In this document: positions 6,701-63,384 of the stretch, piece after piece
Layout: each line of letters starts with the position of its first letter
Numbering within the stretch: the stretch's first letter is position 1
From: Isoetes taiwanensis
Taxonomy: Eukaryota > Streptophyta > Lycopodiopsida > Isoetales > Isoetaceae
Assembly: GCA_021234155.1 (NCBI GenBank)
Contig: JAJEKV010000200.1
Coordinates: 152,001-216,000, forward strand
Length of the DNA stretch: 64,000 nucleotides
Direction: 5' to 3'
The notes under the pieces: generated by a model
What the model was told of the DNA's origin: nothing
Seen by the model: the letters and a program-made list of their open reading frames with translations, nothing else
The model's database searches: none
Translations under genes and position numbers: made by a program

Positions 6701-6712
6701 GGCTGAAATCTC

Positions 6713-7132: not shown

Positions 7133-7144
7133 GGCTGAAATCTC

Positions 7145-13080: not shown

Positions 13081-13168
13081 GTCGATTCTTCTCCACTTCA
13101 GCTTCTTTACCAATATCAGAATGTTACCTGAGAAATTCAAAGTAAAGTTAGAAACAGATAGGTAGAAT

Positions 13169-14085
13169 TCAGCTATGAATATCAAAGATTTCCTCAATCC
13201 AATTAATATCATATTTGGTTTGCTCGATGATAGCCTGAGGCCAAATAATTTCCTCTTTGAAGATCAGGGAATTCCTCCCCTTCCACATTCTCCAAAGGAG
13301 AAGGTAGATACGCCAATTCGATGGGTTCTCTGGAAGAAAGAAATCAATGGAGCTCATAGTTCTAAGATCAGGCAAATCAAGCTCAATTTCAGCTAACTCC
13401 AGAGTCCATTCAGCCCATAAACAGTTCCTAAAGAGGTGATTCTCATCTTCCTGATCCTGCATACATCGAACACAGATGTTAGAATCCGCCATATTCATTC
13501 TCCATCTCTTCATGTTTGTTGCTAGAGCCTTGTGCCAGAGTTGCCATATGAAGGCTTTGACTTTTGGATGGATCGGGCTCTTCCATAAAAATATGAGATT
13601 CCTTTTGATTCTCAAAGGATCCGTGTTCCATTTTACGTGGACTGTATGGCTTGATCCTTATTAAGGAATTTATAGGCCATTTTAACCTTATAACCCTTGT
13701 ATCCGTTTTATATGCCACAAGTCTTCCTAATGGTGCCACCGTCCATTATCAAGTCTCTGGATAATACTATTAAACAAGGTCTCGGACTCCTCCCTAGATC
13801 ACATAAAACCGAGCTATGATAGTGAAAACCATTAATAATATCCTCGATAAAAACAATTCCCTCATTAGTCCATTGTTTAGTGAGGACAGGAAAATGAGAG
13901 GCCAAGCAAGTGTTGGGGTCATCAAGAATAAGAGATGGACTCCAGAAGATAGGCTGATCCTGAGAAAGGCCTTCCTTCCAAGTGTACATTCCCTTGACTT
14001 TAAACCATACGATCCACTTCTTCAATATCGGAGGGGTGGAATTGGGGATGGAAAAAGGAAAGAAAATGCTAAAAGAGAAATGCAT
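13169..14085 (-). pseudogene. LINE ORF2 C-terminal region with zinc-finger RVT domain
   Basis: Read on the minus strand in two or three overlapping frames. The downstream part (13615-13169) contains WKSPIHPKVKAFIWQLWHKA, then the Cys/His cluster ICVRCMQDQEDENHLFRNC, which fits the zf-RVT domain found after the reverse transcriptase in plant LINEs. The upstream part (14085-13708) contains WKEGLSQDQPIFWSPSLIL. The switch between frames shows that this copy is decayed. Confidence 0.75.
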
Positions 14086-28286: not shown

Positions 28287-28577
28287 TTGGAACACTGTAT
28301 GATGCTTGCTATTTCTGATCCTGAGCCTTTGCAACAATATCTTGATGGTCGTTTTTCTCAAAAGATGTGGGATGCAGTTACCTTAGCCCAAGTTAAAACT
28401 GGTCATTATCATGCATATATAAATTCCACTTTGGCACCGGGACCAGAAGCTTATTTGCTTGCTTTCTTGTCTGGGAAAAAGCTTGTAGCTATTGCATCAA
28501 ATCGCACAGGATCCCACAAGCTACTGAGGAAGGTAGATGGAAGTGGCAGCAATTGCCATGAGAAGCGAGATTATATG
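28287..28577 (+). pseudogene. Unrecognised open frame interrupted by transposon TE1
   Basis: Open for about 97 codons from MEHCMMLAISDPEPLQQYLD, through AYINSTLAPGPEAYLLAFLS and GKKLVAIASNRTGSHKLLRK, to KRDYM, where transposon TE1 begins. Across the transposon the frame can resume at 35473 (HVASYKLLKMKAIIC, then a stop). I do not recognise the protein. It may be part of a host gene or older repeat; the transposon insertion would have broken it. Confidence 0.35.
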
Positions 28578-28797
28578 GGTGTAAATTCTATACTGGTGAT
28601 CAAAAAAACGCGACAGCACCCAGCACCTAAAGCACTTGGATCCCGTCAGCCTTGTGTCACGCAATTAATGCTGGCAGTTCCCGCGCCATAATCGTACGCC
28701 ATAGCCATAAGCCATAGCTTTTAGTCGAACTTTCTCGCGCCATAGCCATAGCTTTTAGTCTGGGAATTTCTCGCACCATAGCCATACCGAAAGCCAA

Positions 28798-30518
28798 ATG
28801 GAAAGCATCAGAATGGCCGAAGCAGTGACAGTAGAAGATTTTGTGGAAATGCATGGATTTTCGGATGATGGACTAATTCCGGCTCTAAAAATGAAATATT
28901 TGGAGAAAAAAATCACCAAAGAAGATTGGCTATCAGTTTGGAGAGAGGAGATAAATTCCAGACACAATATAAAAATCTCGCGGGTACAACCACATCTGAA
29001 AGAACAATTACAAACATTGATAAAAAAGCTTTATCAGAGTGAGGGATTATGCAATAATGAGGTCAGAAAACAGATAGCCTATGCTTTTGCATGGAAAAAT
29101 TGCATATCTGCACAAAAAAATCCTGAAAAGCACAAGGTAAATTGGGCTGTTGCTGGAGCTCAAATTATGAAATACAGGAGGTGTAGAAAGCCTGAATCAT
29201 TGGAACCAAAAAATACAGAGAAGAAGACGGTAGAAGCTGAAGAGGAAAAGAAGTTGGCAGTGGAATCTTTTATTTTGAACACAAAATTTTTACAGAATGT
29301 AGAACTGATCGAGAATGAGATCACCAGAATTTCTAGTGAGAGAGAAGCTTGTGCATTGGAGTTGAATGACATCTTGTCACATTGGCAGCAGAGGATCTCT
29401 CAAACCAGGCTTTAAGTGGCAATGTGGCAGAAGCAAACAATAATATTGAGCAAATGAAAAAAGAATTAGAACTCAAAAAATCTTTGCAGGTAACTCCAGA
29501 GTTAGAGAAAGACATTGCTGAGCTTGAAACAAGTATTATGCTTGAGACCTATGCAGCAAAAAAAATGGCAAGTTACAGGAAGGTCAATCCAAACACAGCA
29601 TCAAGAAGGGATGAATTGCAAGGTGAACTTCACATGAAGGATGCTAACCTCTCAATACTGAGATCAAACCTCAAAAACTTGGAAGAACTGAAAGGTATGA
29701 AATTTTCACCAATTAGAGTCAATGCAGTTAGTAGAGACTTACCTATGCTATTTGAGGACGCGTGTGCTGCATGTGGATTAGCATTCTCCAGCAATTACAG
29801 GTTATCGGTAAAACTAAAATGTGATCATGAGTATCACTTAATGTGCACAGCTTTGTTGGCTAAAGGTAAATGCATTATTTGCACTTCATCTATCAGTTCT
29901 GCTTTATTTTTAGAGCTTGGTATGACAGTGCCTGTGGACGAGACAGTGCTTGAAAATACAGGATCACCTTCCATTGTACATGATAGGATATCAACTCTTG
30001 GAAATCTTGCTCTGCTACCCTCAACTTCAAGATCTCCTTATAAGATTGGAGCAAATAATGTTATACTAATAGATGATGAGGGTGAAGCTATTACAGAAAA
30101 CCTTGGGAAGGTTGTTGAGGGGAAAGGAAATTCAGAGTCACATCAAGAGAGTGACACAGAGATAGAAATGGTGAAGGAACATTCGAAGAAAAGGAAATTT
30201 TCACCCAAATCAAAAGTGCAGGTTCCAAAGAAACAGAAAAGCAAAGATAAAGCAAGCAGGAAAGGAGAAGCACCTAAGAGGACTTATCCATTCAGAAGCA
30301 AGAAGAATCTGAAAGATGCATTAGAGGATGATGAGAATACAAGTTTAGAGTTGCAGCAAACAATAGATGAAGCATTTGTAGCACTTAATAATGCTGCTAC
30401 TTGGGAAAGCATCATCACGACAGGTCAATCTGCTGCCACTGCTGCTGTTGAAGTAGAAGATCAGGGTCCAACTCCAAAAGAAGGTATTCTATTTCAAGCT
30501 ATACTTGATGCTCAATGA
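28798..30518 (+). CDS. Transposon-encoded coiled-coil RING-H2 protein
   Basis: Read in two frames joined near 29385-29400, where one frameshift occurs. The first part (28798 onward, MESIRMAEAVTVEDFVEMHG) has a conserved N-terminal region (NNEVRKQIAYAFAWKN) and then a Lys/Glu-rich coiled coil. The second part (to 30518) continues the coiled coil and then shows C-x2-C-x15-C-x1-H-x2-H-x2-C-x8-C-x2-C (29763-29885, CAAC ... CDHEYHLMC ... CIIC), which fits the RING-H2 consensus. A basic, nuclear-localisation-like tail follows (SKKRKFSPKSKVQVPKKQK), then an acidic end. RING-H2 fingers normally recruit ubiquitin-conjugating enzymes, so a ubiquitin-ligase role in transposition or host interaction is possible but inferred. 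The homologue in TE2 (minus strand, 55.4-58.7 kb) has the same order of parts. Confidence 0.75.
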
Positions 30519-30799
30519 CAAAAATGATTACGCCTCAATCAAGAGTCTGTTACATGAAAATTAGCTGGCCTTGATTCTATGCAGGGACAATTGGAGATAA
30601 TTCCATATCAATGAAAGGCAGTGTTGTAGCCATTAGAAGGTATTTGAGTGTTCATTGTAGCCATTTGAGTGTTATTAATAAAAAAAATTTAAATTGCTTT
30701 GCAATGGTTGTTTGAATTTGTTTTGTTCTAATGTAGGTCTCACGACGAAATTCAAACAAATTTGATAATGAAAAAGAGAAATCAAACATCATCAATAAA

Positions 30800-31740
30800 G
30801 TGAAGAAAAGGAGAGCAGAAAAGGAGAGTGAAACTATAGTTCAACCAACTATAGTTGAGCCAAATATAGTTGAGACATTTGAAATAAGTGTTGAGCCAGC
30901 TTTTGTTCCACAAAATATAGTTTCAGAGGCAAATATAGTACAGCCAACAATGGTTCAACATTGTGTTGATACAGTTGCCAAGACATTTGAAACAAGTGTT
31001 GAGCCAAAGAAGTTTGCCAGCAAGTGTTGAGCCAGCCAGGTTCAACAAGTAAAAAGCAAAGACATAGCGAGATATCATGGTGAGTAGAAAGGTATTGATT
31101 ATGGACCTCAATGGTGTTTTGGTTAAAACATATTCAAAGTCTGAAAAACTTGAAATACCCGGCCCACACATTATAGAGTATACAAAAACAAGATAGTTTT
31201 ATTCAGGGCCCGGTGTTACGAAATTTTTAAACAAGGTAAGTGTTATGACTTGGCTATATGGTCATCTATGACTGGTTTCAATACAAAGGAGGTGTTACAG
31301 AAGTTGTGTCCATTACTTATACACAGGCTTGTTTTTATTTGGGACAAAATGCCTTTCACGTTACCTGGACATGTTGACAAACCAGTGTTCATGAAACCTT
31401 TGGAAAAGGTGTACTGCCAGTTTCCTCAATACACTGAAAGATGTATTTTGGTTGATGACTTCGGTTTATAAGACATTCTTGTCTCCACCTTATACAACCT
31501 GTTATTGCAAAGAAGCATGAGGATTGAAGAATTTAAGTCAAGTTCAAGTTTGCTAGTGGATTCCATTTTTCCATTGTTGTATCAACTTGCAATGGATGAT
31601 AACTGGAAGACATTATTGAAGAGAGCACAATTTGTGGATTTCTTTGATATGGAGGCCGTGGAAATTCTTGAGAGGTTGGATGCAGCAATGTTAACAGCCT
31701 CAAAGAGGTTTCTTTTGATCTCTATTACTCTACATTTGTG
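30800..31740 (+). pseudogene. HAD/FCP1-like (NIF domain) phosphatase remnant inside TE1
   Basis: A low-complexity N-terminal part (IVQPTIVEPNIVE and similar repeats, 30800-31028) precedes the HAD-type start RKVLIMDLNGVLVKTYSKSE at 31087. After a frame break near 31192 the frame reads CYDLAIWSSMTGFNTKEVLQ, LVFIWDKMPF, VFMKPLEKVYCQF and CILVDDFG. After another break it reads YKTFLSPPYTT. This is the order of motifs in FCP1/NLI-interacting-factor phosphatases (DxDG, WSS, KPL, DD). The second Asp of the DxD signature is Asn here, as in a plant subfamily I recall, which would weaken catalysis. The TE2 copy shows no such gene, so it may be cargo gained by this lineage. Confidence 0.65.
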
Positions 31741-32065
31741 AAGTGGCTGACTGAACATGCAGATAGCAAGTTCATCAACAACTCTGCCTTGCAACATTTG
31801 AAACAATTTGTAAATAGTTAGTTGAAACAAATTGTAAATAGTCAACTGCCAGCCAGCCATTTTTGTTGTTCATGTAGGCTGGCCAATTTTGTATACATTT
31901 TGATATATCCTTTGGATCTGGATATACTTATTAAGTAATCAATGAATATTTTTATCTTCTTTGCACAATTGATGATTGGAAACTGTTATCAACTTGAAGG
32001 CAGGCTGCTCATTATTTGTTGGCATGTCTGCTCATCCATACTATACAGGTTGTCTTTCACCAAAG

Positions 32066-35000
32066 TCATGTCAAATTTGCAAATCCTAACGAGGTGGTCA
32101 GACAATCGTGGCCGATGGTTTGTCTAAAAAGAAGTTGAAAACTTAATTCTCCTTCCAATTGTTTGTAATAGTAGCCAGAAAGTATGACCTCACCAATTCC
32201 AAAAACATTGCCCCAGCCATCTTCATAATCATCTAGTAATGTATTCTTTGTCTCAATACATTTCAGGACATAAAAGTCTACACCCTCAGCATTGCCTTCT
32301 TCTGCATTCACTGCAAAATTGTCCCCTACTTCTATATTAGAGCTGATCAGATCATGGTCACCATCATCTTCACTATCAGTCTCCTCGTCTTCAGACACAA
32401 CCTCATTGTCAGGAATTTCCTGCAGTTCTACTCTTTTTGGGACCAACTCATTTGTCTCCCAACCTCCTATCTGAGATTTAGTGCTTTCTGAGAGTCCCAT
32501 TTCCCTTTGTTGGGTAAGACATGCAAAAACATGACAAAGGTCTATGTGCAAGCTTCAAAGGATTTTTTCTATCAAAAGGCCTGATGCAATGAATTTTAGT
32601 TGTCCCTTTGAGGGTCTGAGCATCATACCTTTCTGATCTATCTATACTATGAGGGTCAATTTCCCAAAAGTACCTGCAGGCAACAATTAATCAAGTGCTG
32701 TAAGCGCTTAACTGCTGTAAGTGCTGTAAGTGTTGTATAGGTAAGTAAACATTCCAATAACAAAAAAAAAAAAGTTCAAATGGTTATATTTGTACATAAA
32801 TGGCCTTCAACATGTATAAAACTAGTAAAGTATCACCAAACATACATAAAAATCATGCACAATAATTATTATAAAATAGAGGTCTAAGTGCTTCAAGTGC
32901 TACAAGTGCAAGATTTACCCGTATATACGGAATCGATGAGTCAAGGTAAAGAATTCATTTAAAATCGAACGACATCTGCGGCCTGCTGGAGTTTTCTCCC
33001 ATTATACTTCAGTTGTTCCTTTGTGAGAAATCTTTTTACCACTGCTCCTTGGCCATCATGCTCACCTTTTCTATGCGAGCTGGCAAAGAAATTCCAAATA
33101 ATCTCCTTCCCAAGATCTCTGTACCATCTACCCAAGAAATAGAATGGTCTTGCAGACTTAAATTGAGATGAACAACCATCTGACCATACATAATGCTTGG
33201 AATATTGAATACTATTTAACTCCAACCAAGTGGCATGTTTTAAGAGGCAATGCTGTACAAATTCAGTACCATGAGACTTCTCATCTGAAATATAGAAGTG
33301 ACACTCTTTTATAATTTTTCTGTTATCATCTTTTTGCTTCATATCTTTTCTTTTCTTCTTGATGTCATTGCCATCCACCTCTTGTTTCCTTCCAAACCTA
33401 TAAGTGATATGAACTAAAATGGATACCTGGTCAGTGTGCCAATGACATGATTGCGCTTCCTGCTGAACTTTGAAACCATAGTTTTCTGCAAAGTCAATTA
33501 CAGAAACTATTGTGTCTTCTCCAAAACTTGCCAAACATTGTCTGAATTGTTTTGCTTGCCAATGAGCCTTGTAGTTGTGTGGCACAAATGCTGCCATTGT
33601 TTTTCTTGCATGTTCCTGAAATTCAAAAGGGGTACCAGTCTTGTAGGCCAATCTTGTAACTTTAGTTGGTTTCTTCTTAGGGTTTATCCTAGAAACAGCT
33701 TCTTGCTGCAAGTAGTAGAATCAACAAATTAGTATAAATGACGTGATCCTTCTAACACAAACTCAACACTAACTTTTTCAAAAACTTTCCAATCCACCAG
33801 GTGTTCTAATTATTTACTTGTTTCCGTTGGACACTTTGGAATCCTGTATAAAGTGGATTAGAGAAAGTACTGTAAGAGAATATTGAAGCTAGATATCATA
33901 GAAATGAAAAATTAAACAATATATATGACATATGTTATCTAGATATCATAGAAATGAAAAGTTAAACAATATATATGAGCTATGTTAATAACTTACCTCT
34001 TGAGACCATTCATCTGCTTCTACTTTGGGGCATACCACATTTCTCCAATACTCACTTGTAGATTTGAAAATATTGTCCTTAGCATTGCATGTTGGACCTG
34101 GACCACATACCCTGCATTCGCATTTGCAATCTTTGTGCACACCATAAGGATCAGACCTCATGTTATTAATTGCATGCATGACAAAATCAAGGTGCATGTG
34201 GTAATCGGGCGTGACAAGTCTCTCTTTCTTGCAATCTCCTAATATAGCTTGGTTTAAGCTTCTCAAAGGTTTGCTGGCATATATTGATCTCAGGATACTC
34301 TTTCCTGAATTGAAGATAAAACTGCAACTGATCATAACACAGATTCAAAAACAATATCATGCAAAATCTGAGAAAAAAAAAAGGCGTAGAATGTGCTTAC
34401 TTGTGTCACCTCCAAAGAAAATGAATAGGATGGTCAATCTTTTCACTGTTTCACTAACATGTTTTCTCACATGTTTTTATATGGTGAGATCCTAGTATTC
34501 TCATCCCAAAAATTCTTTATCTTACCTATTGCTTCATCCGAAAGTGCATCGACCTTTTTCTCCTCCTCAAACATTGACCGTGGATCTGCTTCAAATTTTG
34601 CATACACACGCCTCTCGAAATGCTCTTGCCACAGTTCTTCTTGGAATAGATAGAAGCCTTGCTATTGCTTGATTGATTCACTCCCTTTGTTGAAGATCGC
34701 GACCATTTGCGATTAATACTCCTTTTTGCTTGAAGAACATCGGTTATTTCTATCATATTTTTGAGCTTGAAAAGTCTCTTTCACATTCAAAATTAAATCC
34801 CTCATAAGGGCATTTTCTTTTGGATCTGCTACATCAACATCGAGTGGAAGATGTTTAATCTTCTTGAAGAATCTCGATGCTAACTTCCCTTTGTCCACAT
34901 TTGAGGCAAAAGTATTTGTAATTTCATTGAAATAATCTTCCAAATTCTTCGACAATTCCTGTAATCTTCTTTCACTCAAAACACCACAATCTTTGGTATT

Positions 35001-35126
35001 GGAAGGAGGATTGTTTTCCTTCTCTCTCTGTCTCTTCCTTTCTCGGGATTTTCTTCTATTTTTAGCTTGAATTTGCAAGAAAATCCTTCTTCTAGTTGAA
35101 TCGATGCTTTCAGGGGAGCTTTCCAT
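32066..35126 (-). CDS. TE1 DDE-type transposase (multi-exon, some frame breaks)
   Basis: Starts at MESSPESIDSTRRRIFLQIQ (35126) with a strongly basic segment (RRKSRERKRQREKE). Further exons lie at about 34700-34470 (FWDENTRISPYKN), 34335-33985, 33711-32960 and 32700-32066. A Cys cluster, CKCECRVCGPGPTCNAKD, is at about 34078-34131. The core reads VIDFAENYGFKVQ (first Asp), CHWHTDQVSILVHITYRFG, CHFYISDEKSHGTEFVQH, YVWSDGCSSQFKSARPFYFL (second Asp), and SHRKGEHDGQGAVVKRFL (Asp/Glu). This order fits RNase-H-fold transposases, but the superfamily cannot be named with certainty. A C-terminal acidic region and GVDFYVLKCIETK / ILSGYYYKQLE block follow, as in TE2. Apparent frameshifts near 32972 (a T-run) and 32510 suggest a recently damaged copy or sequence errors. 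Confidence 0.75.
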
Positions 35127-35472
35127 TGAAATGACTTGAATTACAATTCCAAATTGAAAATTCAATTGAAACAATGCAAAATTTGTTCGAATTGTATGAA
35201 TTGGTATTGCAATTCTCTAATTGCAATTCCGAATTCTGATTTCTCCCGCCAACCACTAAAGGAAACTCCAACCATCCTCCCCGCCAACGGAGTTCCCGCG
35301 TCTTTGGAGATCCTAGTCACTGATCCCTGCCATTCCGGAATTGCATATACTATTCTTGGTGCATGCCAATTCTGGTTTAATTCGGTTGGACGTCACACGA
35401 CTAAGGAGGTACTAAGCGCTTTCAGCACATAAAGCACATGTCCGGACAGTACACCACTATAGAATTTACACC

Positions 35473-37285
35473 TATATGCATGTTGCTAGTTACAAGTTAT
35501 TGAAGATGAAAGCCATAATCTGCTAAGATGTCCTGCTTTTGAGATGGTCAGGAACCGTTATTTAACTTTAGCATTCCATTCCACGCTTCCACAATTTCTC
35601 AGAGCCCCATCTATGCAAGATTGGGCATTATACATACTTGAGATTCTGGATTAGCATCTTCAATTATTGCGACCTCAATAGTCATCGCCTACTTATATTT
35701 TCTTCTTGCTTGTCTAGTATCATCATTACTGCAAAGGTTTTTCCCTTGAAAACCTTTCGAGGTTTTTTAATCCTAGTAGGAATGGTTGTACTAGGCCATT
35801 CTCCGGGTCCCATGGCATTCTATTCTATTCTATTCTATTCATCTCTCAAGCATATTTCGCATTGAGTGGAGAGGACTACTAGCTTAGAAATTAGTATATC
35901 TATGCAAAGATTGGACGCATGGTCCAAGATTGAATGTTTTGTCTAAAAAAAAGAAATTATGCTTTATAATGCAATTTCTAGTACAATAAGAAGATGAATC
36001 AATGAATAGTAGTATTCAGCCCAATGTGAAAAAGAAGTTTTGTCACTTTCACATTTGGGGCATCTTAGATCACCATCACTGCTACAATCTATAAGATGAG
36101 GCGACCATTTATACATAGGAATTGATAGAGAAAAAAGCCCAGACCTCATTTGAGCATATTATAAGGAACACCCAAGAGTGTGCAACAAAGACGTCAGAAT
36201 CCTAAGGTCCTTTTGGTTTATCCCAAGATGATGCCATATGAGATCATTCACATTATTGGAGGACCAATATTTATCTACATCAATAATTTTGATAAAGGCA
36301 AGTGTTGGGCAAACTTTAGTATAAGTTGTTAGTTAGTTAGTTAGTTAGTCAGTGGTTAGTTTGTATATCTAATATTAAATATAGTCGGTTGAAAGTAAAT
36401 TTTCTATCAAATTATTTTAGAACTTTCTACTAACACAGTGCAAAATCTCAAGACTTAAAATAATGCATTACCTAAAAAATTCTGTTAGACCAAAAAGGTT
36501 TGCTTAACCTTACCAACAAATGCACCTTCGAAGCAATATGGCCTGCCAGAAACTTGTCTTTTTAATGCTTCGAATGCCAGAAACTCGTATGCCTAGTCAA
36601 CGGTTCCCATTATAGCAACATTGGGTCAAATGTCATCTAGGTCAAATATGACATCACACTAACGTCCACATTACATCCCATAGCAGCATGGACATCAGAG
36701 TGCAAAGTCTAGTGCGATATAGACATGACGTCACCAAGGATGTGTACAGTTGTAGTGTGTAAATAACACTAGCGAATACTTTTCCGGTATTTTATTAGCG
36801 TTTGTGTACATATATATACACAAAATAATATGCAAGTATTGATTTAGGTGCATGAAAAATACACTAAAGCAGATAGAATATGGGCCAAAAGATGTAAAAA
36901 ATTGATTAGGGACAGAGAATATGTGCAAAGGTAGTTTCTCATCTTGAACATGTAGAAATATTTTATGGGGTATACATGCAAAGGGATGGATGGGATTTAT
37001 GAAAAGGGGTTACTGTTATAAACAATGGTAAATAAGGGATATTTGCCTGACCCTATCTTCGCAGATGGTATATCAAGCTTAAATCGAATTGTACCTTTTA
37101 GTGCGAACGGGGCAAAAAACAATCCAATGGGCAAAATTGCTCATGATGGCCTAAGTCAAGGGTCGAACAAACTACAACCATTTGGTCCACTTACGCCATT
37201 GCAATGAAGACATGTTCTTGCCGCAGAGCTAACCTTAGAAAGCAGAAGAAGTGCTTATGTCTATTGACGTTAAGTTACTTAAATC
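35473..37285. other. Non-coding stretch; ATTCT microsatellite
   Basis: Begins with the right TSD of TE1. A pure (ATTCT)n run lies at 35817-35840 and a (TTAG)n run at about 36327-36350. No gene is recognised. Confidence 0.5.
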
Positions 37286-46545: not shown

Positions 46546-46626
<81 letters not shown>

Positions 46627-46639
46627 TTTTTATGTCCAC

Positions 46640-46784
46640 GGAGGCCAAATCGGCCATGGGACCCAAACAACAAGGGGCGTGGAAGCCCAAAAAGTATAAA
46701 GAAAAAGATAATGAGGCCAAATCGGCCATGGGACCCAAACAACAAGGGGCGTGGAAGCCCAAAAAGTATAAAGAAAAAGATAAT
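46640..46784. repeat. 72-bp tandem duplication in copy A
   Basis: Two head-to-tail copies of a 72-bp unit beginning GAGGCCAAATCGGCCATGGG. The same pair is in copy B at about 59422-59566. Because 72 is a multiple of three, both strands stay open, but no known protein is evident. Confidence 0.9.
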
Positions 46785-46885
46785 GCTAATGCTAACGGTA
46801 ATTTTGCACTACTTAAATTATCTAGACATAGCAAATCCAAGGATTGGACATTGATCTAGAATGATTGCTACGCCTCCCATGTACA

Positions 46886-47137
46886 CTACCCATTTCTTTT
46901 GCAGACGGGCTGCCCTGGCCTTGTAAGGCTCCTCCTTACGGTTACATAATTGAAGAGGAGAGAGGTCCTCTTGTATTGAAAAACTAGTCCCTTTGATATG
47001 GTTACCATGTTGAAGAATATGTAGGTGGCTGAGAGCATCATGAAACCGAACCAAATGATGTCGAGGACGATCTGGCTTTGCCGCTCCCATCCTAGTAGCA
47101 CAGACAACACTAGGAACTTCACATGAGCCTCATCCAC
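46886..47137 (-). pseudogene. Unrecognised hydrophobic coding-like fragment (copy A)
   Basis: Minus-strand frame with DEAHVKFLVLSVLLGWERQS and a hydrophobic segment (IIWFGFMMLSATYIFFNMV). Present also in copy B (59668-59916), where a 3-bp deletion keeps the frame. It may be a captured exon of a membrane protein; I cannot name it. Confidence 0.3.
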
Positions 47138-47630
47138 AGCTGAATGCGCATCAGTTTATGTCTCTGTAACCACTACAATAATCAAGGTTAAGGTACTAGT
47201 AGTAGCAGGTACTGAGACAGCATGGTCCTGTTTGCTAGTTTGACATCGCGGCTCCTGGTCCATTACGAATTGTGGAGATGGCTATACTCCCACCTCAATA
47301 TGTTCCTTTTCCAAATTTCTGCACTCCTGCATCAACACAATGCTTCTGTTGTAATGGTAATTCTGACTCTAATGTCTGCACTGAAGCATCATTTGTTCCC
47401 ATACATTGGCCATTAGAGTCTGGGACCAAAGCATGTATTAACTGTCACTAGAGGTGTGAGGATCTAAAAGCTCAGGAATTGTGTACCAATATATTATGTA
47501 TATAGCCTAACAATACTCTTGTTCCTTGCAACTGTGTGGAAGTGGGTCGTGGGGAATTAATGTAGTTACGAAGTGCTAATATATCTAGTGCTCCAAAACA
47601 TTGTACTATTTCTAAGACAACAAATGTCAC

Positions 47631-47661
47631 GGTTCTATTGCGAAGTATTCGCAATAGAACC
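47631..47661. repeat. Perfect hairpin, 14-bp arms (copy A)
   Basis: GGTTCTATTGCGAA, loop GTA, then the exact complement. The same hairpin is in copy B (60410-60440) and, with the outer base changed, at 63828-63857. In each case it is followed by the block CCATTCTTTGGCAAGGGACG. Confidence 0.9.
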
Positions 47662-50600
47662 GCCATTCTTTGGCAAGGGACGTTGCTATTTATGGACCGC
47701 CTTCTTCTATATATACTATGGAATCTTAGTCTATGGATGCCACATGTGGGTCATTTTATTAGGCATGGGTTATCCCCTATTCATGCTGTGGGGTGGTTCT
47801 AATAAATTGCATATGAAGTTTAAAGTGTGCATGTGGTGATTTGTACACATGAGGTTGCGTACGACGTTTGAGTAAGATGCCTATGGAGTGATTTATACAC
47901 ATGATGTGTGTCCATTCATATAAAGTGATTTATACATCTAGTAGTCCAATCCATTAATAATTCATGTTTGCATGCTTGGTTCATTTTTCTGTGTTACTAT
48001 ATGTTCATGTCAAGGTTGTAGAGTGCTTTTGATATGTCTGAAAGTGGTTTACAATTAACCAGTATTTGCCAAGGTTTCTGACTTCTTGTTTCTTGCGGCC
48101 AATGACTATGTTATTTCTTATTTTTTTTTTTTTTTATGCCATGTCTTAGGCCTTTACTTACTCTTTCTCTTATCTCTGAGGTGACGTTGGTTTTGTTATC
48201 ACACCATGCTAGGTGAGTCTTAGCTCATTGATCTATTTCTTACAGTTTTTTCACAGGGTGCTCTTATTTCCGTTGTTCTTACCATATCCGAAAACATGTA
48301 TGCATTTTTGCCCTAGTTTCTTTTCCCGCCCTTGCTAATATAGCTTGTTTTTCTATTGACATGGCGTTATGTGCTTATGCCGGCCCTTATATTGTTTTGC
48401 ACTAGGATCTCAGTTGGTTGACACCTTAGTACTAGCTTCTTTTGTTCTTTTAGTCTCGTTTGTGGCATTGACATTAGTTTGTTCATGATGCTTGTTGATG
48501 GGCTTCATGTTCATCAACTTTGCCTTGGTGGCTTTGCCAGTTTAGTCTTTTGTATCACATTGTGATAGTTAGTCGATTTTTGCCTGTTATCCTTTTTCTT
48601 TAGATTGTTACATAGTTCCATTGATGCCACTATTTCAGTTGCTCCCTATTCTTATTAATTTCCATCCTTCCCATCTATCTTTGTGCTTCATCGGTCCCAA
48701 TTTGTTGCTAGTTAGCATTTTGCTCCTTTACCCCATTAGTTCCATTTTTGTTCATGGGCTATTTGCTAGCTGCTGTCACTCCTTGACTTTGCTTTAATGC
48801 TTCATTACATATACCTTAGTTTGGCTGCATCGTCCATTCATTTACATGCTCACATGCATCACCTTTGTTACTTTGTTCTTGGTTAAATAGAACACTTGAG
48901 ACATTTTGTTGTGTTTGTCCCAGTCCTCTTTTCTCGACCCTTGTTAGCAAAGGTTTAGTTATGAGAGAGATATATGTTTCATAGCTTTGTGGAGCAGTAT
49001 CAATTAACGCATTTGATTAGTTGTTGGTATTTTTTATCTCTTTATATTTTCTATACTTTGGTTGAATACTTGCATTGGTCGTTAGTGGTGCAATAGTCTC
49101 TTGTAGTTGGTTGACTAGCCACACTCAGTATCCATTATGGTGGTTGGTTTTGACCTCTTTAATGGGTTGATTCATTTATTTGACTTTGGATATTGTTGTA
49201 CTCATGGCCTATAGGTATCGAGCTTGTGACTCTTGGATCGTTCGCTTATTCTATTCTATTCTATTCTATTCTATTCTTCCTATGATCTTTGAAATAATTT
49301 TGGTCTCATTTTGCTCCAGGCTGGATGACTTTTCGCTTGGCGTTATGTGTTTGGAGTTTCATACTAGCTGCACTCTTATTTCGTCGTTGTTCTTACCATC
49401 ACCATAGATACATGCTTGCCCCTTTCCCTATATTCATTTATGGTTAGATTTTAGTTGCTCTCCATTGGTATATCTTGTTTTGTTTATGCTTTGTCTTAAT
49501 ATTGCCATGGTCGAGGTATCACATGTGTCAGCCTTATCTTTATCTGAGCTAAGATCTTGGTACTACCTTCTTCATTTCCTTCAATCCTCTTTGTTCCATT
49601 GTTCAGTTTAGTCTTTTGCTATTTTATTTGTCCTTGCAATTGTTTTCTAGTTCCCTTTGGTCTTATTGTTTCGTTTGTTTCCTTCTTTCATGATACTTTA
49701 TTTTAAGTTTGTTGTGCTTCATGGTTCCATACCATGTCAGCTCTTTTGCAGTTGTTCCCTTCTATGTTAAAGTCTTTAGCTAGATCTGCTTTGCTCTCGT
49801 CCTCTGTGTTGCATTCTTGCATTCTTTCTGTTGCTCCATGTTCTCCATATTTCTTTAGCATTATTTTCTCATTAACTCCATTATCTCACTGTCCATTATT
49901 TGTGTCCAACTAGAGCTCTTTTTCTTTATGAACATTCATTATGTGATATAGGTCGTTGCTCCATTACTTCTCTTTAGTATTCTGATTGGTCAATTTTGCC
50001 CCATTGCCTCGATTGTTGTATTTCATGCATTATTTTTTCTCATTTAGAGGTTCAAATTTATTTTGTTCATTTGGCCACACTTTTATTTTTTTGCGATTTG
50101 TCACATCTCACTTTGCTGCTGATTGTTTCTTTTCAGAGGTTTTGTTCTTGCTTATTTATTGTTAGGACTTCATTTTGGTTGGTTTGTTCCTTTTGTTTTC
50201 ATTGTTTGCTTTTGCTACTCCTGGCGTCGCATTCCACCTTATGCTCCATCCATTCTTCTTTTTCTACCATCAGGTCCCCTTGCTTTGCTCCTCAATTGAC
50301 TCCATTTAGTCATCTAGCCTTGTCATTATCATTTGCTCCATTAATCCCACGTTTCCAATTTGTTTTTATTTACTCTTTTGCCAATTCTATTCTTTCAGCA
50401 GTTCCTATATCCCATTGGCCTCATTTGCTCTTTTTGTCCACTTTAGTCTCGCTCTTTTGCCCCCTTGATCTTAATTTGGCATCGGAGTTGCCTTGGATGT
50501 TTCAGGAGTTGCAATCCTTCGACTTTGCTTCATCAGGACGAATACACATACTTGGATCTCTTTCTGCACTTTATTGAAGCCATTCATTTACGGGCACACG

Positions 50601-50838
50601 CACAATATTGGGGGGCAATTTTACGGACGTCGACATTGGGTGCTGGGGGGGTGCTTTTGGCCTTTTTTCCTAATTTTAGACTCCATTATCGATTTAGGTT
50701 TTATGAGCGCCAAACTGCTCGAGCAATTTGAGGAGAGATCGTTGGCCCGCCAAGAGCATCCTCTCAAAATGATGATACCCCGCCAAATCCGTCTTCCCCA
50801 TTCGAAGATGCACTTCTTCCTATTTTTTTCAAGAAGAG

Positions 50839-53800
50839 ATGGATTTGGTTGAACGTTTTGCTGCCGAATTTGAAGCAAAATTCGGAAATGCTGATCCAGA
50901 ACTGGTGGCAAAGGACCTGGGCTTCGATTTGGAGTCTGAAATACCAGATATAAGGGTGCCAGAGTTTGTGCCATCCACTGCTGTCGTTGCCAGTGAATTA
51001 ACAGATTTAGGAGAAGGATTGCCTTCCCCTTCAATTTCGCCTGTTAAAAGAGTTTCATCTCCCATTTCGGTTTCAGAAAGGTCTGTTGGACACACTTGTT
51101 GTGACTGCATTCGTGTTAAATGCAAATGTTTATCACCAAATACAGCTTGCAGGAAGATTATGTCTGCCAAAAGAAGAATGCAAAGGAAAAGAAGAGCCGA
51201 AAGATTGGCACAAGAATCAGCTGCAACCCCTCATAGATTGGCCACTAGAACCAAACAGAAATTGGCAAAAGATATTTTGGATAATATTCATAATGTGTGC
51301 AAAAATTTGTTTCAAGATGATAGGGATGAGATATTAGCAAGAACAGGTCAAGGATTACCTCAAATTGGCATCATGGGCCACAAAGAATTTTTGGCAGTCA
51401 GGGATGTTGTTGATAATGTTAAGAGCAGTCTTCAAAGCAACAAGCTAAGAAGGAATCATGACATTACTCATGCAAGATCATCTACACTTTTAATGGCTGT
51501 CAACAATTCCAACAATAAGTCTCGTATTGCAAAGACATTGAACATAAAGAGAAAATTTTTTTATCTTTGCTTTGGACAAGAAGAGAGCAGCTGCAATTGG
51601 TGGACCTTGGTCCATGTTTAAAAGGAAAAATAGGAGTGACAAACTTTCTGTTGGTGATCGAGAGAAGGTATACAACTACTGGATTTCCAACACCAGGGTT
51701 TCCCCTAACAAGAAGCAAGTTGTGAAGCTTAGAAGATGCAACGAAGGCTTGAAGACTCAAAACCCCTACAGATTGCATCCGATTCATTTTTTGGAAGAAT
51801 CTCAGGTTTTGAGATCTCTAACTCTGATTTTTTATTCAATTCCAATGCTTTGTCTTCTTTATTTTCTTCTTCACTATGTTGCATATTACATGCATTTCCT
51901 ACATGCAAATTCTAAGCACATGCATTTAACGGTTACGCAAAAACAAAGTTCTAACGAGTTCATTTTTTTTCATTTAGGTTGTATTTTACAAAAATTTCAG
52001 AAAAGAGCACCACGACATGAAGATTGGATTGAGGAGGTTTGAATCTTTGAAACCTTTGTTTGTTAGGAGATTGAAAGATCGAGAAACTTGCATGTGCATT
52101 TATCACCGCGAAGATGGAATTTGTAAAGGGCGGACTTTGAATAGAATTAGAAGAGATCCAAACACACATGGGCCAAATTGTGCTTGCAAGTGTACAGTTT
52201 GTGGTAAGGGAGACCTTTGTGAAGCAAAAGACAAAACATTTAACATTGTAAGTGAACTATGGAGGTCACCGGTCCATTTGTAAAAGGCAGAGGAGGAGAT
52301 TTGGCACAAGGCAAAATGCCTTAAACTTGATCGCACTTTTGTGGTATCAAGAAACTAAGAAGATGTCCAAGGGAGAAGAGTGCATTGAGAACTATCGATT
52401 GGAAGAACTTTGAGAAGGTATTTCTGCTGCTGTACCAATTGTTTTCCAATTGTTTACTTGCCAATTGAATGGTAGTGCTCAAAACAGATTTTTGGCTCTG
52501 TTTGGTGGTATTCATCTTGTTTTTTGTCAACACAAAAGTTAAGGAGACAATAAAGAAGTCCAGAGGGCAAAGAGGGAAAAATCATAGAGAAGACAAAAGA
52601 CATTATGAGGCTTGTGTACAAGACAACTACCTTGAAGGAGTTCATGACACATGCTGATGGTGTTATCAAACAGTTTATCCCACATAATTACACAGCCAGA
52701 TGGCAAGCAGATCAGTTCAAGAACTGTCTTCAATCTTTTCCAAAAGGTACTATGGTTTTACATTATAGACTTTCTTGAAAATTTCTCTTTCAAAGTTCAA
52801 GAAATCCAGAGCATGCATTGGCATAACGACCAATGTTCTCTATTAGTTCATATTACATACAGGCATGCTTTAGATGGAGAGATCCCAAATATCAAGGTTG
52901 GGGATAGAAAGATTGCCAAAGAGACACATTTCTACATATCTGATGACAAGAAACATGATAGTTTGTTTGTCCAGCACAGTTTGCAAAGTCATCATGACTT
53001 TTTATTGAGCAAGGGAGTACACTTGTCTAAACATGTGTTCTGGTCTGATGGATGTGCTTCCCAGTTCAAATCTTCTAGGGCTTTTTTCTTCTTAGGCAGA
53101 TTCTATAAGTTGACAGGGATTAAGATGCGATGGAACTTTTTCGCTTCATCACATGGGAAAGGGGAACATGACGGTCTTTGGAGCTGTCATAAAGAGAATT
53201 TTGACAAGTGAAATGCTCAAACGAGACAAAGACTCCCTTGAGGAATGCACAAGATGTTGTGAACTTCCTGATTTGGTATTTTAGCTCCAAACTGTCTTTG
53301 AAAGAGACTAACATAAACAGGTCAATACTTTTTCTTTCCTTTTTTGGCTGCTTATTACTTCTCAACTGCTACTAACTGTTTATCACTCCAACATTAGGTT
53401 CTTTTGGCTTGTGAAGCTAGGTGATGTTAATAGGGACATGAAATATGACTGTGAGACTCTCAAAGGCACAACAAAGATACATACAATCAGGCCATACTGC
53501 AAAGACAGGCCTCTTGAAGTGGCACACAGGCATCTGTCATGTTTTTGCAGATTCTGTTGGGCAGAACTGTGGTCCAAGTGTAGACATGCATCTCGGCTTG
53601 GAGAGTATGCACATGAAACTTTACTTCCTATGGAGGTGGTAGAAGAGGCATCTGTAACTCATGTACAGTATGAAGGGGACAATCGATGAAGGCGAAATGG
53701 TTGATGTAGGTGACAACTTTGTTGTCAATGCTGAGGAGGGCAATGAAGATAATGTTGATTTTTGGATCATTAAGTGCACTGAACCTAAACACACTGTGGA

Positions 53801-54101
53801 ACGTGCATTTAAGGACTACTGGGGCTCTAAATTCAACAGGCAGGAAATTGTATTGTCAGGTAAGTATTACAAGAGCATTGGAGATGGTAAATACGAGCTG
53901 TTACACAACATGCCTGAAGTAACCTGCTATTCCCACCTTGTAGTGTGTGCAAAAGTTGAATTACAGGCAGTAGCTGATGAGGAACATGTATACTTCCTTT
54001 CAAATGAGGCACATGAACAAATTGTTGAGTATTTGCCTCCTCCAACATCCGAGGTACTTCTGCCCCAGCCCAAGCCTGAAAGAGGTTTGATGCCACAATA
54101 A
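50839..54101 (+). pseudogene. TE2 DDE-type transposase, frame-broken
   Basis: Starts MDLVERFAAEFEAKFGNADP. A Cys-rich motif follows (CCDCIRVKCKCLSPNTAC), then a long basic helix region (AKRRMQRKRRAERL). Later exons show YWISNTRVSPNKKQ, a Cys cluster CACKCTVCGKGDLCEAKD, and the core FLENFSFKVQEIQSMHWHND, THFYISDDKKHDSLFVQH, FWSDGCASQFKSSRAFFFLG and ASSHGKGEHDG. After it come RHLSCFCRFCW and the C-terminal DVGDNFVVNAEEGNEDNVDF and IVLSGKYYKSI blocks. The order matches TE1 throughout. At least three frame breaks (near 51557 in a T-run, 52755 and 53172) lie inside conserved segments, so this copy is probably dead. One intron with AG acceptor at about 51978 is likely. Confidence 0.75.
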
Positions 54102-55372
54102 AGGTTTGCTTGCATTGGACTTAGATTAAACTATTTGCGATTCTGGGATCTTAAGTACAAAAACCCATTACTTACTTTAGGGTTCTTTGAGCAAAGGCTC
54201 AAACAATGTACTGGAATCTGATATACATTGCAGTGGAAGCAATTTCTTCAACTCTTGTCTGTTTCTATAAAATTTTTTGGTACTATGTGCTCAGACATAA
54301 ATTTTTATCTCTTAATGACATGATTGAACCAATTTGTTTTTAACATATTTACGCCTTTCTAGTAGTGGACTTTTGTTGTAATGGAATTTCTTTGAGGTCC
54401 GCTTGTACAAAAGAATTACTTGCATCCACATTATTGTGAATTTTTTAGATGTGCATTTGGCTACATGCTGAAAAGACAAGCTCCAGTGAAGAACATATCG
54501 ACCAGAATCTTATCCTCTTGGAAAATGTGTAAAACTTAGCTAATTGTGCAAGGTATGTAATCAGTTAACCCTCATTGTGTGTGTTGCTAGACTACCCTTG
54601 ATTTAGACTGAAGAATGTTTACTTTGTAAACTTGACAAACAGATCTGACATTGAAAGAACATTAAATGACTCCAACTTGGTAAAGAGACCAAGCCAAGAG
54701 TCTACCTAGCTTTGTTGGGACTTAGGCAATTGGCACTTGACATTGTTGGGACTTAGGCAATTTGAGCACACTAAAGCAAATTTTCACACTTAAGCAATTT
54801 GCACTATCTTAAGGAAATTTGCACATTAGCACTACACTTAAGCAAATTTGCACTACACTTCAGCAAATTTGCACATTAGCACTACACTTAAGATATTTGC
54901 ACTACACTTAAGCAAATTCAAAGGTTGAAAGTGAAATTCAGTTTCATATATTGCATTAACGTTTGCAAGTTCAGCAGATTCAAAGCTTCGAAGTGAAATT
55001 CAGTTTGCTTATTGCATATATTGCAATAACGTTTGCAAATTCAGCTTTCAGTTTCACACAGTTTCACGTGTGTGAATCTAGAACTGTATGTTCCTAAAAC
55101 TGTTTGAATCTAACACTGTGTCATGTTGACATTCAGAGCCTGTTTGTAAAAGCATAGAAAGTACAAATTCATTCCTTGAAAAGCCTGTTTTCATTCATTA
55201 AAAAATTGTATGTACATTGTAAAAAAAAACAGACTTCTTCAAAAAAGATCCGTAGAGCCGAAAATGAAGCTTCATAGCCTAGCCATATTGCAGTCTCCAT
55301 CAGTCTGCAGTGAAAAGATGCACAATTGTTAACAAACACAGTTGGTAAACATACATAATAAGAAGCATCTGC
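54102..55372. other. Gap between convergent TE2 genes
   Basis: No gene. A tandem array of about 18-36 bp units (TTGCACTACACTTAAGCAAA, with CATTAGCACTA variants) lies at 54775-54920. A pair of repeats CTTATTGCA...CAATAACGTTTGCAA type lies at about 54945-55035. The TE1 counterpart of this interval holds the HAD-like gene, which is missing here. Confidence 0.6.
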
Positions 55373-58300
55373 CTAACCTGGTATGTTTAGAGTAACTGTC
55401 TTCTCTACATATTGTTCAAGAGTCATGTCTCCTTCATCACTTTCCTCGTCAGATTTGGGAAGCTCAGGTGTGGGATCTTCATGTGTAGGATCTTCAAGTT
55501 TATTTGCAGATACAACACCTTTAGAAACATCACTTGCTTGCACAACTGGCATGCTTTGATCAAAGTGCATCTCAAAGAAATTGGAGAGACCGGGAATGAT
55601 TGGCATTTCAGGAACAATTGGCATTGGTGGAATGATTGGCATTTCAGGAACAATGTGCATTGGTGGAATGATTGGCATCTCAGGAACAATGGGCATTGGT
55701 GGAATGATTGGTATTTCAGGAACTGGTGTAGCAGAAATAGATGGCATGGTAGGAATAGTTGCCATTGCAGGAATAGATGGCATTGTAGGCCTTTGCTTTC
55801 AGATTGATTCAACCTGCAAAGATTAGCAAAGACCCTAAATCTATCTGCGAGATCTTCAATTTGGCTTCCACATACTTCTGCATTTTGCACCAAGCCACCT
55901 GTTGGCACTGTTGCAGAATCGAACCACATGTTTGCAATCTGGCTGGAGTTAAAAGACTCAGCTGGATTGCTTAATGTAGCTTCTGCCAAACAAAAGTGAA
56001 ATGTTCAAACTATTAATTTCAAATCAAACATTAAATGTATCCTACATTAAGCACATACCTGAGAGTTCTTTCTCACATTGTGCACTCTTGATACATACAT
56101 TGGCATTTTTTAGCATACTTCCTCACTAATTTCCCTTTAGGAGTTGGATTCTCACAGTGAGAGTCTCTCTAGCAGAGTCTCTTTGGCAGATTTCTTCAAA
56201 CCACGCTTAGCACCCGCACCCTTCTTATAAGGACCTCTCTTCTTTCCATTTTTGGCACATCCGAAAAGCAAAAACATGTGGTTAAACTTGATTCATTTCA
56301 CAAAAACACCTCTCATTAAAAAGGGCAAAGAAAAATAACCTTTAGTTGCAAATGGAGGTCGTCGTGCACTAAACTTTTTAGGCTTGCCTTTTCTCTCATT
56401 TGGAAGCTTGGCCACAATAACTACATCACTAACAAAAGAAAAAAAAGCATTTGCCCTTCCTTTTCAACTGGTGGGATATTTTCAAGATCAACATCATCTG
56501 CAGCAGCTGTCTTGTCTTCTCCTCTTCTCCTTCTTGTGGAAACTACTGCAACAAGAATAAAAATGTTAAGAAGAAAGTTTTTGAATTACAAAATGCAAGT
56601 TGACATTTGCTTGCCTTTCGGTGGCGAGGTGTTTTGAAGATCAAGATCATCTGCAAAGATCGTATTGTCTTCTCCTCTTCTCTTTACGGTGGAAACAAGC
56701 TGCAATAAGAATAAAAATGTTAAGAAGAAAGTTTTTGAAATACAGAATGCAAGTTGACATTTGCTTGCCTTTCTGTGGCGAGTTGTTTTGAAGATCAAGA
56801 TCTTCTGCAGCAGCATCTTCAGGTGTCTGGTCTTCTCCTCTTCTCTTCCGGCTGGAAACTACTACAATAACAAAAAAATAAATTAAGAAGAAAGTTTTAC
56901 AATTACAAATTGAAATTGACATTTGCTTGCCTTTCTGTGGTGATGTCATTGACCGGGTTAAAGGTCTCTTACCCTGACCCTGTACAATATCAGCATCTTC
57001 CTCTTCTTCTTCAGCATCATCTTCAGCTGGATCTTCTGCACTCTCCTTAATAGGTAAGAAGTCTAGGTATCCAAGTTCAGCATACAACTCTCTCAGTATA
57101 TCTCGTTTGCAAACCATGCATTGTAGGTTTTCCATTAGAGGTAATTTGAGATCTCATTTTGTCCCATTAAGGGATGCTTAAAAAGCCACATCAGCTTTTT
57201 AAACTGTCCAATAAGAGAAGAGCTCCAGTGTATTTTATTCCAGTATTATGTGGCAGCAGTAATTAATGCAGTTCTAACTAACTTTTGCAGTGTCATTTTT
57301 CTACTATAACTTTTGATCAAAAACTCCGATTCGAACACTATTTGTGGCAATGGATTCGCCTCCTCGAGATCTTTCTAATGACAACCCATTATTATATCTT
57401 TTGGGATGTAAATATATAAGAAAAGAGCAAAAAACCATATTTTTTAAGGTTAACACATATGGCTTGTATTGAAATACATCATAACCATATATCACTTGAA
57501 AGATCTTTTCATTCTGCATCTAATGCAACAAACGCCGCAGCATTTTCATGAGTAGATCAAAAGTTATAGGGAAAAAACAACAGCAATGAAGTTGTTAATG
57601 CTGCATTAATTGCAGTTTGATGTAGAGTACTCATTCTATTGGAGGATTCTTATGGGGACAAAAGGAGATCTCAAATTACCTCTAATGCACACATTGCTGG
57701 AAACAAAAGAGGTGATATTTGTGTCCACAAACCAATTGGACAAACATGCTATAAGATGGACTAAAAGCAAAGCCACAAACTTGGCAACCATCTTCAAAAT
57801 TGATAACAAGCAGGCTGCCTGGACTAGGTTTTACAATGCTTGTGCTCATAAAATTATCCCCCAAGTACTGCAGATTTTTAACCTTCACCTTGTAATCATC
57901 AACAGCTGCAATCTTAGCCTGCAAGTCAGTTCTTAGATCTGTTAGTTGCTGGTCCAAATCTGCACTATTATCAGCTTGCCTCTTCCTTTTCAAAATCGTG
58001 AGCAATGACAAACCAAGCTTTGATTCATCTTGACAAAGCTTTCCAAGGGCCTGGTCTTCATCTGGACATGCTTCTACAAGATCTTCAATCATTACTTTAG
58101 TCTTCTTCAATCTATCCGAGACAGAAGCAGCTGCCTCATCAAAGCCTGCCATCAAGCCCTCAACTCTGATTTTCTGAAACTCCAGCTCTCTGATACTGTT
58201 TTGTATACGTGAAATTGATTCTTCAAAACTTAACATGTCAGTCTCTAAAGAAGAAACACCCATACTAATGTTCTTCAAAGCAATCTCCTCCATATCTGTT

Positions 58301-58700
58301 TTATGTCTCTTGTTTCTATTGGAAATCTTAATTCTTTCAAAGGCAAATGTAGCCCAATCCAACATATACTTACCAGGGTTTTCTTCAGCTCTTCGAGTGT
58401 GCTGCCATGCAAATGCACGGGCAAAAATAGTTCTAGCTTCATTGTTCTTCAGACCAAACTGATAGATTTTCTATTCTATTCTATTCTTGATCAATACCTT
58501 CAGTCGATTCTCAAACTCTGGCCTAATGCAAGACACTTTTATTTTGTTATCCTTCTTTACTTCTTGAGACCAAACTGTCAAAAAATCTGACTTAGGGCAA
58601 TCTGTCCAAGTGATACTGCAAGGATCTTTGCCCTCATTGCACACAAGCCACGATATTGGACAAACTCCTCATTTGTAAGCTATCTTCATCCGCAAAATAA
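55373..58700 (-). pseudogene. TE2 coiled-coil RING-H2 protein, disrupted
   Basis: Minus strand, many exons. The N-terminal part (about 58700-58365) matches TE1: FLTVWSQEVKKDNKIKVS and NNEARTIFARAFAWQH. An (AATAG)n expansion at 58468-58487 adds an in-frame stop. The coiled coil (58365-57800) leads to CQVC, x15, CGHKYHLFC (57700-57790). Then a foldback MITE (57134-57686) splits the finger from its last pair, CMVC (about 57110). Further on is an acidic stretch (EDDAEEEEEDAD), four tandem copies of a roughly 155-bp exon-plus-intron unit (56455-56960, motif KRRGED...DLDLQN), then basic patches (RGPYKKGAGAKRG). The end consists of four 36-bp repeats coding IPPMPIVPEMPI (55590-55730) and an acidic tail. 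The repeated exons appear to use GC donors (AAAG/GCAAGC). Confidence 0.7.
57134..57686. mobile_element. Foldback MITE inside the RING finger of TE2
   Basis: ATTAGAGGTAATTTGAGATC at the left is matched by its complement at the right end (GATCTCAAATTACCTCTAAT), extending with one mismatch to a TIR of about 32 bp. Inner segments are also mirrored (ACTATAACTTTTGATC / GATCAAAAGTTATAG). It separates CGHKYHLFC from CMVC of the RING-H2 motif. The TSD is unclear; TA or a short AT duplication is possible. Confidence 0.75.
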
Positions 58701-59259
58701 ATAGAAGGTAAATCGAGAAAATGAGGTCGGATCATAACGGATAAATAAGAACATTAAGCATCCAAAATTGAAAAGCCATGAACTTAAAGAATCGAGAATG
58801 GAGGCCTTTATTCGACTTTTTAGCCTAAAAAGATCGACCGAAACTAAAAAAATGATCCCGGATCATAAAGACTTCAAAAATTAACCATTGTCATCATCCT
58901 TTCACATAAAGGAACGAAAAGATCGGCCCTGTTATCTATCTTTACCGAAAATATAGAATGCAAAAGAAACTTTACCTCTGGTTCTTTGAAGATCCGGTGA
59001 CTGTCTCTTTCACTTAGGCGCCTCCTCATAGAACTGGACTATCGGATTTGTAGCCAGTAGGGACAATCATGGGAGGCATGGCAATGATGAAGATGGAGTA
59101 GAGAATCATAGCTCGCCTAGTCTCAAGCGAGCACGCAAAAAACTAGCCCTAGGGGTTCCGTCAGAGTCGAAAAAGTAATTACAATTAAAAAAAAAAATGG
59201 AGGGAAAAAAAGGGTTGGGGGTCTTTGGAGGGTGCTTGCCATGCGCGTTTTGGCCCCCC
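58701..59259 (-). other. 5' region of TE2 RING gene and right terminus
   Basis: A possible first exon on the minus strand, MRRRLSERDSHRIFKEPE (about 59031-58978), ends at a donor GTAAAG. The rest is leader-like and poly-T-rich sequence up to the terminal GCCCCCCAATAT. Confidence 0.35.
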
Positions 59260-59263
59260 AATA

Positions 59264-63384
<4,121 letters not shown>

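Follow-up and report, generated by a model that had tools for sequence, protein, structure and literature searches.

Can a DNA transposon carry a RING-H2 gene of its own as a standard component, and what might such a gene do for it? The question is raised by a 64,000-nucleotide stretch of the Isoetes taiwanensis genome (hereafter the window; GenBank assembly GCA_021234155.1, contig JAJEKV010000200.1, positions 152,001 to 216,000, forward strand). It contains element 1, a transposon with terminal inverted repeats (TIRs) in which a transposase gene and a gene for a coiled-coil RING-H2 protein are read towards each other from opposite ends, and a divergent relative, element 2. The window copy of element 1 is best explained as a decayed member of a recently amplified family that belongs to a group of cut-and-paste transposons both large and old. 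The termini and the length of the target site duplication (TSD; in three families), the gene content and the convergent gene order are shown, and this order is conserved across very divergent elements. The whole explanation, to which a probability of about one half is attached, is a cut-and-paste group that combines a DD(D/E) transposase with a convergent, host-facing coiled-coil RING-H2 accessory factor.

The matching TIRs claimed in the initial annotation are borne out, with 20/21 nt complementary between 28578-28598 and 35452-35472. The initial 15-mer of the TIR is found twice in the window, against a mean of 0.18 in shuffled sequences (up to two mismatches), and 85 times forward and 79 times in reverse in the genome searched (1.658 Gb, 1110 contigs), where a reversed control gave 2 and 0 occurrences. 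The perfect 6-bp TSD, TATATG, did not withstand comparison of junctions. Among 25 pairs (the window copy, L009-L022 and ten wider-spaced pairs), an exact 4-bp TSD is present in 23 when one extra base per side is assigned to the element, this base being G on the left in 25/25 and C (23) or T (two) on the right, so that the family reads G-GGTGTAA...TTACACC-C. The boundaries drawn initially give a 6-bp duplication in 7/25 junctions, all of which also fit 4 bp, and mismatched flanks gave a 4-bp match in 8/600 controls. The two junctions without a 4-bp fit (L027/028 and L035/036) may be wrongly paired ends of different elements. A TSD of 4 bp, instead of 6 bp, is established for the element 1 family. 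By hand count, a pyrimidine precedes the left 4-mer in 22/23 cases (C 12, T 10, G 1) and a purine follows the right 4-mer in 13/23 (G 10, C 6, T 4, A 3). These flanking bases are taken to reflect a preferred target near CNNNNG, since 6-bp fits exceed what base composition would give.

Both TIRs bound the element in 14 of 16 genomic stretches fetched, ten of these elements measuring 6.87-7.11 kb and the rest 5.6, 6.4, 7.7 and 8.4 kb. An unbroken end-to-end alignment with the window copy, at 91.5-94.5% identity, was obtained for seven of these 14, and the other seven align in several pieces. The 15 copies, including that in the window, lie 1.4-6.2% from their majority sequence, and the family has therefore been amplified recently. 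The criterion for their choice was a pair of TIRs at a spacing of 5.6-8.4 kb, which favours full-length members, and their coverage was counted from pieces in any frame, which does not imply intact frames. With this understood, the RING protein is covered to at least 96% in 15/15 copies, the FCP1/NIF-type phosphatase protein described below (hereafter NIF) to at least 93% in 14/15 (L021 retains 8%), and each transposase piece to at least 70% in 14/15 (L020 is without most of the core). The RING gene thus accompanies these TIRs throughout the sample, and the refuting outcome named initially, full-length copies without it, was not encountered. The element had been called intact-ended; its ends are indeed intact, but the RING, NIF and transposase frames are all broken in the window copy, the latter two by stops or frameshifts. 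Elsewhere, the RING frame is unbroken over 590 amino acids (aa) in L013, and the NIF frame over 366 aa in L020 and L017. A within-family selection test, with piece T3a left out, gave no sign of recent constraint on the RING gene; recent variants within the family look near neutral. Longer-term constraint may be argued only from the open frames of divergent copies: 33 RING matches of at least 200 aa and at most 46% identity are without a stop, a count among the matches listed for the element 2 RING query.

Further evidence that the RING gene belongs to the transposon comes from divergent relatives. The transposase and RING gene of element 2 are also convergent, and genome searches with each gave 150 matches; those for RING range from 100% down to 32% identity (best 146 of 2473 candidates scored), and those for the transposase come from the best 150 of 7444 candidates scored. 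Among the matches listed, 57/140 distinct RING loci have a transposase within 25 kb, as against a chance expectation of about 0.6, and in 56/57 the transposase is downstream of the RING gene on the opposite strand. The 83 RING loci without a listed transposase are not evidence of absence, as only the best candidates were listed. Two loci with a transposase and no listed RING gene (L059 and L060) were opened as a test against this reading, and both have a divergent RING gene in the expected place (24-38% identity, with one 36-aa piece at 43%). The pair was seen directly in L050 and L051, and in L045-L048, chosen by weak NIF matches, the order of RING, NIF and the convergent transposase is unchanged. 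Altogether, the pair is present in 8/9 divergent loci opened; the 9.6-kb stretch of the ninth, L049, contains the RING gene and no transposase piece, and a transposase is listed at a distance of 11.7 kb from that gene. The claim that the RING gene is a real transposon component is therefore upheld, both by the TIR-bounded copies and by the constant convergent position in divergent relatives.

The termini of these relatives are consistent with those of element 1. L045 has a TIR beginning GGGTGTAAAT that pairs over 29/30 positions and a duplication CATT, and copies of the element 2 family have 4-bp duplications in 3/3 cases (AGCA, AAAT, CATT). The signature common to the three families is GGG..CCC with 4 bp; GGGT is the reading for element 1 and L045 and at most ends of element 2 copies (GGGC at some). 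Scans of L046-L048, L050 and L051, and of L059 and L060 under stricter settings, revealed no convincing TIR pair within the stretches examined. Against the element 1 majority, L045 shows 52-64% identity over the transposase pieces, as compared with 33.5% in the RING protein and 38% in the NIF protein. At positions 1604-8934, L045 is a divergent element in which RING, NIF and transposase have long open stretches; with these and its well-matched TIRs, this lineage may therefore have been active recently.

The DDE-type transposase noted initially, read from the minus strand, is confirmed by 64 homologues, with named hosts that include Taxus and the alga Klebsormidium. Of its candidate catalytic residues, D73 is present in 31/31 homologues, D178 in 31/33, D219 in 25/27 and E217 in 21/27. 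The core models as an RNase H-type integrase/transposase fold. The suggested hidden Markov model comparison with DDE superfamilies, made as a Pfam search of 33 homologues, matched no transposase or integrase family, and no relatives were confirmed in viral contigs or GTDB genomes (78 and 100 pattern matches, respectively). A Cys-rich region lies ahead of the core at 34203-34006, and beyond the core, at 32690-32129, another Cys cluster is accompanied by a region that distant homologues share, VGDNFAVNAEEGN...VDFYVLKC...DGWGN; Pfam gave no match in the pieces scanned.

The RING protein is read from the plus strand, opposite to the transposase as originally described, and its finger is of RING-H2 type as judged by ligand pattern and profile. 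A regular expression for the eight C3H2C3 ligands has a single match in the six frames of the window, namely this finger, and the pattern recurs in 10 of 23 other loci scanned, where frame breaks may hide more. The first six zinc ligands are conserved in 6/6 proteins of alignment A3. A profile of six divergent RING proteins, searched against solved structures, found RLIM, a ubiquitin ligase (E3), as best match (E 5.6e-4), with RNF38 and Arkadia near 4e-3; coiled-coil chains (haemagglutinin HA2 and others) that rank between and after the RING chains were set aside as chance. The model of the whole protein (mean predicted local distance difference test score 51) was too weak for use and was not fold-searched. 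A protein-database search found no relatives of the RING protein, coiled-coil words having probably crowded out others in a capped list of candidates. A weak RING match at 13151-13381 (E 0.002) was dropped, as its three-frame translation shows nothing RING-like.

The transposase and RING gene were first described as a two-gene element, and both are present, but a third coding region of FCP1/NIF type lies between them. The Pfam NIF match in a sister copy is well above the gathering threshold (E 2.5e-13, 50.4 bits versus 21.8). A single NIF protein gave no match among solved structures; a three-sequence profile matched UBLCP1 at 5e-5. The active-site motif of FCP1/NIF phosphatases is DxDx(T/V), whereas 3/3 sequences of alignment A4 read DLNGV. 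The NIF domain is possibly spliced to the RING gene: L045 has a candidate donor, AG/GTAAAG, and a candidate acceptor, TTAG/G, which agree in phase (2) and could join the RING and NIF frames. NIF was not found in element 2 or in L049-L051. The branch of element 1 adds a phosphatase-type domain, perhaps as part of the RING protein itself.

Table 1. Features of the two elements in the window.
Feature	Positions	Strand	Basis or remark
Element 1, TIR transposon copy	28577..35473	.	Ends redrawn: terminal G 28577, terminal T 35473
TSD, left copy, 4 bp, ATAT	28573..28576	.	Junction comparison
TSD, right copy, 4 bp, ATAT	35474..35477	.	Junction comparison
Left TIR, GGGTGTAAATTCTATACTGGTG	28577..28598	+	TIR pairing, genome counts, junction comparison
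Right TIR	35452..35473	-	TIR pairing, genome counts, junction comparison
Coiled-coil RING-H2 protein gene	28798..30561	+	Broken near 29373 and 30511
RING-H2 finger, C-x2-C-x15-C-x1-H-x2-H-x2-C-x8-C-x2-C	29763..29882	+	Ligand pattern, profile
FCP1/NIF-type phosphatase domain, DLNGVLVKT motif	about 30740..31818	+	Several stops in window copy; possibly 3' exon of RING gene
Transposase gene, several coding pieces T1-T4	31992..35132	-	Homology; decayed here
Transposase catalytic core, RNase H-like model; candidate D73, D178, E217/D219 of the open reading frame	32959..33711	-	Homologues, alignment, model
Element 2, divergent relative, left end GGGCACACGCACAATATTGGGGGGC	50592..59264	.	Right outer TIR replaced by ATAG microsatellite
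Element 2 transposase	50776..54098	+	54% identical to element 1 in best core piece
Element 2 coiled-coil RING gene	57685..58638	-	27% identity to element 1 RING over about 310 aa, E 1.6e-27

The surroundings of element 2 show further rearrangement. The microsatellite that substitutes its right outer TIR occupies 59265-59330, and because of this replacement the window copy shows no target duplication. A TIR TGGGGGGC with TSD ATAT was read at first and proved wrong: the TIR of other copies begins GGGTCAAAGCACAATATTGGGG or GGGCACACGCACAATATTGGGG, and the right outer end in the window has been lost. A 4.05-kb direct repeat (46546-50591 and 59328-63384, 98% identity) flanks the element, its left copy ending one base before the left terminus and its right copy starting about 60 nt past the eroded right end. 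The arrangement resembles that left by a recent tandem duplication in which the transposon sits where the two copies meet. Short tandem repeats with a unit of about 155 bp are present at 56479-56946, in the region of the RING-gene tail, and L049 likewise repeats a similar RING-gene tail segment.

What the RING protein might do can be proposed from sequence. It would work in trans as an accessory factor: oligomers formed by way of the coiled coil would recruit a ubiquitin-conjugating enzyme (E2) and have ubiquitin-ligase activity towards a host chromatin or silencing factor or the transposase complex; the element may thus use the host ubiquitin system, as the initial annotation surmised. Where present, the NIF domain would recognise a phosphoprotein or the carboxy-terminal domain (CTD) of RNA polymerase II (Pol II) and, with DLNG at its DxDx motif, may bind more than hydrolyse. 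An accessory, host-facing role fits RING and NIF because both diverge faster than the transposase. A precedent for transposon-encoded anti-silencing is provided by the VANC proteins of VANDAL elements (PMC13317346, PMC10398659, PMC5735166). A large and diverse transposon group with its own RING gene, and often a phosphatase-like gene, suggests that such elements may act on host regulation. A more specific version can be offered only tentatively: that the group is a superfamily in its own right or else branches deeply within Sola, with a transposase and its own ubiquitin ligase as standard equipment, and that one branch splices the ligase to an FCP1-like domain docking on the Pol II CTD or another phosphoprotein. 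If this were true, the element would carry a ubiquitin-based system for anti-silencing or for transposition control.

Several observations weigh against a ligase. The finger scores 14.7-15.6 bits with Pfam zf-RING_2, under the gathering cut-off of 27.3. Trp and Pro are the usual E2-contact positions in RING E3s, and both are missing from the finger. The main rival makes the RING-H2 protein part of the transpososome, in a structural or DNA-binding capacity: its zinc cross-brace and coiled coil would bind the TIRs or bridge the ends, without any ubiquitin-ligase role. That it is constantly paired with the transposase at the examined loci would suit such a subunit, and piggyBac-related transposases, with their zinc-finger domains, provide a precedent (PMC8086355). 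Nevertheless, the solved RING chains ranked highest in the profile search are E3 ligases, and faster divergence than that of the transposase is unexpected for a subunit tied to conserved TIRs. This role is possible, though somewhat doubtful. Capture of RING and NIF as host passengers by Pack-type transduplication, with no part in transposition, is very improbable. NIF domains do occur in host enzymes and recent variants within the family look near neutral, but homologous RING genes hold the same convergent place although the proteins are mostly 24-38% identical, frames are long and unbroken in divergent copies, and linkage to the transposase is far above chance.

The remaining alternatives concern kinship. 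An IS3EU or Dada element was proposed initially from the apparent 6-bp TSD, seen in the window copy and six other junctions; this kinship loses its basis because the TSD is 4 bp, a length that fits those seven junctions as well, and is now scarcely credible. Dada TSDs are 6-7 bp long. In IS3EU, termini are TA..TA (or TG..CA across IS3EU/GingerRoot) and the TSD is usually 6 bp (PMC10045372), as opposed to GGGT..ACCC and 4 bp in 23/25 junctions here; the IS3/IS481-type integrase of that group has no Pfam counterpart among the 33 homologues, the RNase H-like fold being common to integrases. A stronger case can be made for the known Sola superfamily, the RING and NIF genes then being ordinary, undescribed cargo of plant Sola elements, and for this the chances appear evenly balanced. 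Sola elements have DDD transposases, 4-bp TSDs and a size of mostly 2-9 kb, and are present in a moss (PMC10741241); they are also more numerous in Azolla than in Salvinia (PMC6786969). The TSD, TIRs, size and occurrence in non-flowering plants would be a good fit to Sola as described, and at the third acidic position, where the Sola triad has D, D is present in 25/27 homologues and E in 21/27. On the other side, no Pfam transposase family was matched, and the portions of the two Sola sources consulted mention no RING or NIF gene.

The group preferred here, with its convergent RING-H2 accessory gene, can also be compared with transposons that carry second genes or RING fingers. Few DNA transposons have conserved accessory genes. 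PIF/Harbinger elements have a transposase and a second open reading frame as standard (PMC10741241), but that frame is Myb-like and the TSD is 3 bp. KolobokP pairs a DDD/E transposase with a second enzyme, which is a His-Me finger homing endonuclease, and is reported from animal phyla (PMC9587614). VANDAL elements, with VANC or KIU (Ulp1), are likewise plant DNA transposons with an accessory gene acting on host silencing, and some VANC genes contain a Ulp1 domain (PMC13317346); they are, however, non-TIR Mutator-like elements (MULEs), and no Pfam MULE or Ulp1 match was found in the proteins scanned here. Searches of the open literature listed no title or opening abstract lines describing a separate transposon-borne RING or NIF gene, which is not proof of novelty. 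RING fingers themselves are shared with the RAG1-RAG2/Transib and Chapaev DNA transposons, and a 2015 account places them in no known transposable elements outside the Chapaev/RAG1 lineage (PMC4411706). In Chapaev subgroups and RAG1, the RING is within the transposase, behind the Chapa domain, and the inferred ancestor TransibVDJ combined a RING-bearing transposase with a second, Kelch-PHD protein (PMC4411706), whereas here the RING belongs to a separate, convergent coiled-coil gene. With a large and diverse lineage pairing such a gene with its transposase, the use of ubiquitin against silencing or for transposition control becomes testable, and a transposon lineage with a RING-H2 gene of its own would stand as a second, separate case beside the RING of RAG1.

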